Shown piece by piece: positions 14,784 to 15,415 of a stretch of 34,607 bases of DNA. The notes under the pieces were generated by a model, which was not told where the DNA came from, did no database searches, and saw only the letters and a program-made list of their open reading frames with translations. This DNA comes from Kiritimatiellales bacterium (GTDB taxonomy: Bacteria > Verrucomicrobiota > Kiritimatiellia > UBA8416 > JAIOPI01). Where the stretch lies: the NCBI GenBank assembly GCA_945949405.1, contig CAMFEP010000005.1, positions 1 through 34,607 on the forward strand, in the 5' to 3' direction. Made by a program: the position numbers and the translations under genes. Position 1 is the stretch's first letter. Every line of letters starts with the position of its first letter.

Positions 14784-14830
14784 TATGTTGGGAATTTTCC
14801 GGAATTCACCACGCCTTACGCCTATCCATG

Positions 14831-14860
14831 TGTAGGGGCGCATGTGTCATGCGCCCACAC
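14831..14860. repeat. REP family A copy 1 (GTAG-headed) at the start of the RAYT gene
   Basis: TGTAGG is followed by a perfect 9-bp stem GGGCGCATG-TGT-CATGCGCCC (14836-14856), then ACAC, which can pair with the leading GTGT. The preferred RAYT start codon (14849) is inside the stem. The preceding CACGCCTTACGCC (14811-14823) resembles the inverse of the hairpin at 18719-18732. Confidence 0.85.
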
Positions 14861-15346
14861 GGAAATCGTCACTTGCTTCCAAATCGCAAACGTCCGCCTC
14901 GCCTACCCTTCATCTTTAGCGACCACGCATCACCCATTTATTTTGTCACGATGGCAACTCGATCACGCACATCCCTGTTGGCAAATGATGCTGTCCATAT
15001 CGCTTTCCTGGGTTTTGCCCGCATTGGCTTGGATCGCAAAGGGATTGCCGTGGGGCGTTACGTCATCATGCCCGATCACATCCATCTATTCGTACGCGGG
15101 CCAATTGGCTTCAACTTGCGCCAATGGGGACGCATGCTAAAACGGGCGCTTGGCACAAGCGCCCCTACACAGGCAGGATCGTTCTGGCAGCGCGGTTTCT
15201 TTGATCATCTTCTGCGCAATGGTGAGAGCTACGCGCAGAAATGGGAATACGTTCGCATGAATCCAGTACGCGCCGGCCTTGTCGCAGCTCCAGAAGACTG
15301 GCCCTATCAAGGCGAACTTATTCCCCTTGAAGGCCCCAATGTGTAG
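14849..15346 (+). CDS. RAYT, REP-associated tyrosine transposase (Y1/HUH, IS200-like)
   Basis: 165 residues (172 from ATG 14828). RAYTs are single-strand DNA nucleases of the Y1 HUH family that recognise REP hairpins. The HUH motif is His77-x-His79 in MPDHIHLF. The C-terminal helix NGESYAQKWEYVRMNPVRAGLV carries the candidate nucleophiles Tyr128/Tyr134, and FWQRGFFDHLLR and DWPYQGEL are typical of the family. YFVT near the N-terminus is the first strand. No frameshift or stop is visible, so it may be active. Oddly, residues about 99-108 (RALGTSAPT) are encoded by a complete REP hairpin in reverse orientation. The start lies in another REP, and the stop TAG is part of a degenerate REP head. 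Base composition looks less GC-rich than its neighbours. Confidence 0.92.
   Translation: MRPHGNRHLLPNRKRPPRLPFIFSDHASPIYFVTMATRSRTSLLANDAVHIAFLGFARIGLDRKGIAVGRYVIMPDHIHLFVRGPIGFNLRQWGRMLKRALGTSAPTQAGSFWQRGFFDHLLRNGESYAQKWEYVRMNPVRAGLVAAPEDWPYQGELIPLEGPNV
15144..15170. repeat. REP family A copy 2, reverse orientation, inside the RAYT gene
   Basis: GGGCGCTTG-GCA-CAAGCGCCC followed by CTACAC is the exact reverse complement of 15355-15381. It adds or replaces codons between the KR segment and FWQRGFF of the transposase, without breaking the frame. Confidence 0.85.
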
Positions 15347-15381
15347 GGACCCTGGTGTAGGGGCGCTTGTGCCAAGCGCCC
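15341..15381. repeat. REP family A copy 3 preceded by a degenerate copy
   Basis: GTGTAGGGACCCTG (15341-15354) is a decayed or partial head whose TAG is the RAYT stop codon. The full unit GTGTAG-GGGCGCTTG-TGC-CAAGCGCCC (15355-15381) follows. It lies between the convergent RAYT and fusA genes and could stop transcription from both sides. Confidence 0.85.
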
Positions 15382-15415
15382 GCTCTTCCCAATGACCGAT
15401 GCCCAATGACATCCG

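Follow-up and report, generated by a model that had tools for sequence, protein, structure and literature searches.

A REP within the reading frame of a RAYT gene occupies what is most likely a tolerated landing site

A gene for a REP-associated tyrosine transposase (RAYT, or TnpA_REP) of a Kiritimatiellales bacterium carries within its own reading frame a copy of its presumed cognate REP, one of a family with members on either side of the gene and at many other places in the genome. Here we show that this inner REP belongs to the family of the flanking REPs, that it is translated in the frame of the gene, between the HUH motif and the catalytic tyrosine, in what is predicted to be the alphaC–beta4 surface loop, and that REPs recur at this loop in other RAYTs. 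Most likely the loop is a tolerated landing site and not a control switch. We put at roughly 0.78 the probability that RAYT activity spreads REPs, which then persist wherever neither the frame nor the encoded peptide does harm, the inner REP being one such tolerated copy. This copy could have arrived by REP mobility, through the action of a RAYT on single-stranded REP DNA, or by recombination or conversion with the flanking copies. It may have survived because the loop tolerates changes of length and sequence and the frame gives small, soluble residues, and it would need no function in the gene.

Identity and limits of the RAYT gene

The window, the whole stretch of 34,607 nucleotides that was analysed, encodes a protein that matches the NCBIfam family NF047646 (REP_Tyr_transpos) with an E value of 2.3e-26, exceeding the family cut-off, and also Pfam Y1_Tnp. 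Its fold matches that of Escherichia coli TnpA_REP (PDB 4er8; E 3.5e-8, TM 0.65). The hallmarks of class 2 TnpA_Y1 proteins (RAYT / TnpA_REP) are present, namely an HUH motif (DHIH) and a single tyrosine in a Y...NP motif (YVRMNP), together with a WQ motif; as expected of a RAYT gene, REPs of a genome-wide family (about 60 copies) lie on both sides (Table 1).

The start is the least certain part of the gene. The sequence-only reading had placed the start region in a REP, which fits two of the three candidates: of the 5′ REP, the right arm contains ATG 14849 and the head overlaps with ATG 14828. By contrast, TTG 14873, which has GGAA 8 nt upstream and begins six residues ahead of the conserved RPPRL, would put the 5′ REP wholly upstream of the gene; the N terminus read from it resembles MSPRHRPPRL, with which L008, the nearest relative, begins. 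At the other end, the stop codon TAG (15344–15346) sits in GTGTAGGGACCC, which differs from the REP head at two positions. A degenerate REP head, as had been proposed, is plausible here, but the case is weak because near matches barely exceed chance in the window, where the 12-mer of the head is found 11 times with at most two mismatches against 5.5 expected. REPs of the GTAG type that provide TAG stop codons are described in the passages covered of Di Nocera et al. (2013; PMC3733652).

Table 1. Features of the RAYT locus (positions in the window)
Feature	Position	Strand	Basis
RAYT / TnpA_REP gene	14849..15346	+	NF047646, Pfam Y1_Tnp, fold match 4er8; start uncertain (ATG 14849, ATG 14828 or TTG 14873)
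5′ REP, GTGTAGGGGCGCATGTGTCATGCGCCC	14830..14856	+	pattern match at 14832–14856
DHIH (HUH) motif codons	15074..15085	+	residues 76–79 of the ATG 14849 reading; homologue alignment
Recurrent REP landing site: end of helix alphaC and alphaC–beta4 loop, codons W93–W113	15125..15187	+	AlphaFold2 model; tagged-hairpin counts in 203 RAYTs
Inner REP, in frame, encoding RALGTSAPT (15143–15169), head GTGTAG on minus strand	15143..15170	-	28/28 complementary to 3′ REP; pattern match at 15144–15168; predicted hairpin -16.6 kcal/mol
YVRMNP catalytic tyrosine motif codons	15248..15265	+	residues 134–139; homologue alignment
GTGTAGGGACCC, possible REP-head remnant supplying stop TAG	15341..15352	+	2 mismatches to head; little above chance
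3′ REP, family of the inner REP	15355..15382	+	pattern match at 15357–15381

The inner REP and its family

The pattern GTAGGGGCG..CGCCC has three matches in the window, one in each of the three REPs, and no others, against 0.01 expected from shuffles. The inner and 3′ REPs form an inverted repeat, complementary at 28 of 28 nucleotides, and the inner copy lies in the RAYT frame downstream of DHIH and upstream of YVRMNP. A perfect REP in reverse orientation, translated between the HUH domain and the tyrosine helix, had been claimed from the letters alone, and the comparison with the 3′ REP confirms it.

Across the source genome assembly (1.96 Mb in 163 contigs, 76% complete) the pattern matches 60 times, 22 of these with the exact TTG..CAA hairpin. 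Several REPs of the window type have a partner of a second type, GGGCGCTTCTGTGAAGCGCCC, in inverted orientation, forming REP pairs (REPINs), and the genome holds an additional REP family, GTCGCTTGCGAC / CCGCTTGTCGGC. A chance palindrome or coding convergence, for which one could cite the first three encoded residues, R-A-L, as the consensus of the protein family at that place, is refuted by the identity to the neighbouring REP at 28 of 28 positions, the 22 exact genome copies and the expectation of 0.01 in the window; we give it next to no weight.

The REP-encoded loop in the protein

In an AlphaFold2 model of the window RAYT built from 71 homologues (mean pLDDT 86), residues 90–102 form a helix and 118–122 a strand. 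R99–G102 make up the end of helix alphaC and T103–T107 the loop before beta4. After the REP loop come W113, Q114, D119 and R123, the counterparts of W94, Q95, E100 and R104 of E. coli TnpA_REP, which are named for the GTAG-guide region in the passages covered of Quentin et al. (2018; PMC6006769). As the modelled loop adjoins W113/Q114 and D119/R123, it might tune REP recognition, and the same passages place alphaC:beta4 insertions near the REP-recognition region. We hold this to be very unlikely: the loop takes very different sequences and lengths, which argues for tolerance, and most relatives have no REP there.

A recurrent landing site in RAYT genes

A contig scan, two whole-genome searches and four fetches yielded 203 distinct RAYT genes, mostly from Verrucomicrobiota and relatives. 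We defined the linker as the stretch from W93, the tryptophan of helix alphaC, to W113, which is variable among homologues and makes up 15.6% of the sequence, and a tagged hairpin as GTAG, GTGG or GGAG adjoining a stem of at least seven pairs. Codon shuffles predict 0.9 tagged hairpins in the linker, which holds 15, and 2.9 in the remaining 84% of the sequence, which holds 4; 15 of 19 in the linker corresponds to a binomial p of 1.6e-9. Hairpins outside the linker look like chance, except for one REPIN in L069. In that gene, from an Akkermansia MAG, an in-frame, REPIN-like inverted repeat occupies nucleotides 170–230, between the HUH strand and helix alphaC (the beta3:alphaC place), a second landing loop.

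Besides the window gene, the linker carriers are L008, L044, L045, L080, L082, L084, L104, L244 and L251/L252, joined under looser criteria by L012, L065, L083, L109 and L113. Their REP families differ (GTAGGGGCG, GTAGCTGCCGC, GTAGCCGCGCTT, GTGGGG and GGAGGGACG types). Where checked, the host genome holds the family of which the inner REP is a member, with 34 copies for L082, 32 for L012, 11 for L044 and 22 for the window. The linkers of L012, L044 and L082 contain whole REPINs (two inverted REPs, about 65–75 nt) translated in frame; of the three frames, a single one is open. On a tree built without the linker columns, REP presence in the linker changes state at least 10 times, or 13 times with the looser set. 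The earlier suggestion of a self-insertion that was tolerated as the frame survived is thus well supported, the same linker having repeatedly taken up REPs or REPINs with open frames in other RAYTs; the passages covered of Quentin et al. (PMC6006769) report the same.

In the linker, a reverse-orientation REP head (GTAG or GGAG) is present in 13 RAYTs and keeps one phase, nCT-ACn (nCT-CCn for GGAG), in all of them. In the nine single or short linker units all three frames are open, yet one is always used; full REPINs have a single open frame. The frame in use gives mostly small residues (ALGTSAPT, ALRRSAPT, AAGTAATT, PRTASTAT, PQPTAAAT). This constancy, in 13 cases that are not all independent, is consistent with selection on the peptide or with descent from a REPIN in which no other frame was open.

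Two further RAYTs are of note. Another RAYT of the source genome (L005/L007, G000:C106) has a long linker rich in proline and alanine, GEAAPSRASPSRPAP, which may be a decayed REP array, and L074 has at the alphaC end an untagged palindrome, GGAGCGCCAAAGCGCTCC (gene nucleotides 193–210), with no matching copy nearby.

Most RAYT homologues have no REP in the gene, and about 5 to 8% have one in the linker. This share seems much higher than what an ordinary gene of the source genome would show; a local (cis) preference or a benefit of some kind could explain it, and it counts against simple tolerance. The RAYT genes of this clade (Verrucomicrobiota/Kiritimatiellota) may acquire their own REPs, in the alphaC–beta4 loop, at a much higher rate than is usual for other genes, through movement in cis or an advantage, although we regard this as improbable. 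If true, the advantage might be that REP and transposase are kept together in horizontal transfer, for example, or that the loop tunes recognition.

Insertion, replacement or conversion

REP-bearing linkers are longer than REP-less ones (medians of 32 and 20 residues, p 2e-7), and the linker of L008 is clearly longer than that of its REP-less neighbour L015. The window linker has 19 residues, as does that of L009, and those of L010, L016 and L021 have 18. With no gain over its nearest REP-less relatives, plain insertion is rejected as a full account of the window gene; it must be assumed that the REP replaced linker sequence, that the linker was trimmed after insertion, or that conversion at the GCGCTT stretch produced the copy. 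Homologue alignment thus gives a divided answer to whether the REP-encoded residues are an insertion: G-T-S-A-P-T is absent from REP-less relatives, but the linker is not longer. It had also been argued that homologues from genomes lacking this REP, if they had the same residues at this position, would refute the reading. REP-less relatives agree with this in part: they share R-A-L, the consensus (RRALSTRI in L010, KRALS in L030 and L035), but not G-T-S-A-P-T, which is not consensus.

These observations bear on a variant of tolerated landing in which the inner copy reached the gene by another route: not by REP transposition but by template switching or gene conversion, with the flanking REPs as the source, at an existing GCGCTT stretch, the codons of R-A-L. 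In all other respects the two readings agree. The absence of a net gain in linker length, the identity of the inner and 3′ REPs over 28 nt and the REP-less L035, which already encodes R-A-L as GCGCGCTT, speak for it. Other RAYTs clearly gained length, however, the whole REPINs in their linkers fit insertion better, and distant copies of the same REP are present in the genome. We consider conversion a possible but minority route.

The window RAYT, L008 and L015 form a supported clade (98/92) whose inner order is equivocal (AU p 0.21 both ways), so that a single REP ancestral to the window gene and L008, lost in L015, fits no better than two insertions. The genome of L008 (G408) has both REP types of the window genome; those of L009, L010, L015 and L021 have none. 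In L008 itself the inner REP is of the window genome's second type, and the REPINs that flank the gene have another head (GTAGTGG).

In-frame REPs in other genes and the case for autoregulation

In-frame REPs also lie in unrelated genes of the source genome, in three of them in the linker between two Pfam domains. In tilS (L153, C26) a REP pair at about residues 220–237 falls between ATP_bind_3 (1–189) and TilS_C (294–361). A REP at 476–485 of a polyketide synthase (L269, C37) separates an acyltransferase domain (to 423) from a carrier domain (506–571), and in a glycogen-debranching enzyme (L272, C44) REPs at about 488–505 lie between GDE_N (to 467) and GDE_C (527–910). An L,D-transpeptidase (L276, C58) has a domain found on one side only of its in-frame REP, as does a membrane protein with a spermine-synthase domain (L293, C141), whose REP is the same as that of the RAYT. 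Near-identical peptides such as VGASLATPAGADERRPY are common to five proteins of this genome (L153, L160, L269, L272 and L276). The occurrences in tilS, the polyketide synthase and the debranching enzyme weaken a RAYT-specific self-targeting: the copy in the RAYT gene is one of several tolerated copies, and the gene is not uniquely self-targeted.

The inner REP could instead limit expression of its own gene, either through RAYT binding to the inner hairpin in the mRNA or in the single-stranded gene, or through pairing of the inner and 3′ REPs. The inner hairpin is predicted to fold by itself (Table 1), the inner and 3′ REPs are predicted to form a 28-bp duplex in the mRNA (z -4.1), and the inner REP is of the same family as the flanking copies. 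The predicted duplex is compatible with regulation but does not show it. Against such control, most relatives have no REP in the gene and in-frame REPs occur in unrelated genes too. Moreover, RAYTs act on single-stranded DNA, and to our knowledge RNA binding by them is not established. A literature search for RAYT autoregulation found none. Autoregulation therefore strikes us as unlikely.

Relation to known systems

That REPs can be tolerated within RAYT genes is essentially known already. The passages covered of Quentin et al. (PMC6006769) report REPs inside the gene as 'unique' to TnpA_REP subclass 2.4 (RAYT group 4), with which the window RAYT shares an in-frame REP between HuH and Y. It departs from that subclass in its HuH motif (DHIH instead of NH[IFV]H, with N in 1 of 203 relatives) and its Y motif (YVRMNP instead of YIxNNP). 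Their Table 1, as covered, gives the subclass 2.4 insertion at beta3:alphaC, whereas the window REP reads as alphaC:beta4, a difference that depends on the paper's nomenclature. With D in place of E100 (D119, in 201 of 203 relatives), WQ and DHxH, the window RAYT is as subclasses 2.5/2.7, to which those passages link D at the E100 position. Compared by published motifs, YVR[MEQDN]NP resembles the YI[LR][NQ]NP of 2.7 without matching it exactly, the motif of 2.5 being YI[VI]ANP. Assignment to subclass 2.4 was judged by published motifs because the plasmid RAYTs fetched as reference sequences were 2.2- or 2.5-like. Since the window protein lacks the 2.4 motifs, the phenomenon is wider than published: it extends to another RAYT group and probably to another loop.

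E. coli RayT (TnpA_REP, 4er8) shares the fold and the conserved WQ..R guide-contact positions, but has no REP in its gene and E100 in place of D. Rickettsia palindromic elements (RPE) are likewise palindromic repeats in frame in protein genes, although no link of theirs to a RAYT is known to us. The passages covered of Di Nocera et al. (PMC3733652) report REPs in frame within many genes, those of the GTAG type mostly in Opitutus terrae; like the REP studied here, GTAG REPs and dimers are part of open reading frames, and GTAG can supply TAG stops. RAYT genes are not named as intragenic targets in those passages.

Our findings confirm, in another transposase clade, that the gene for the enzyme presumed to mobilise REPs itself takes them up in frame. 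The about 10 independent cases, together with their REP-less relatives, make up a natural collection that bears on how local REP movement is, on the mode of insertion and on the function of RAYTs with a REP in this loop.
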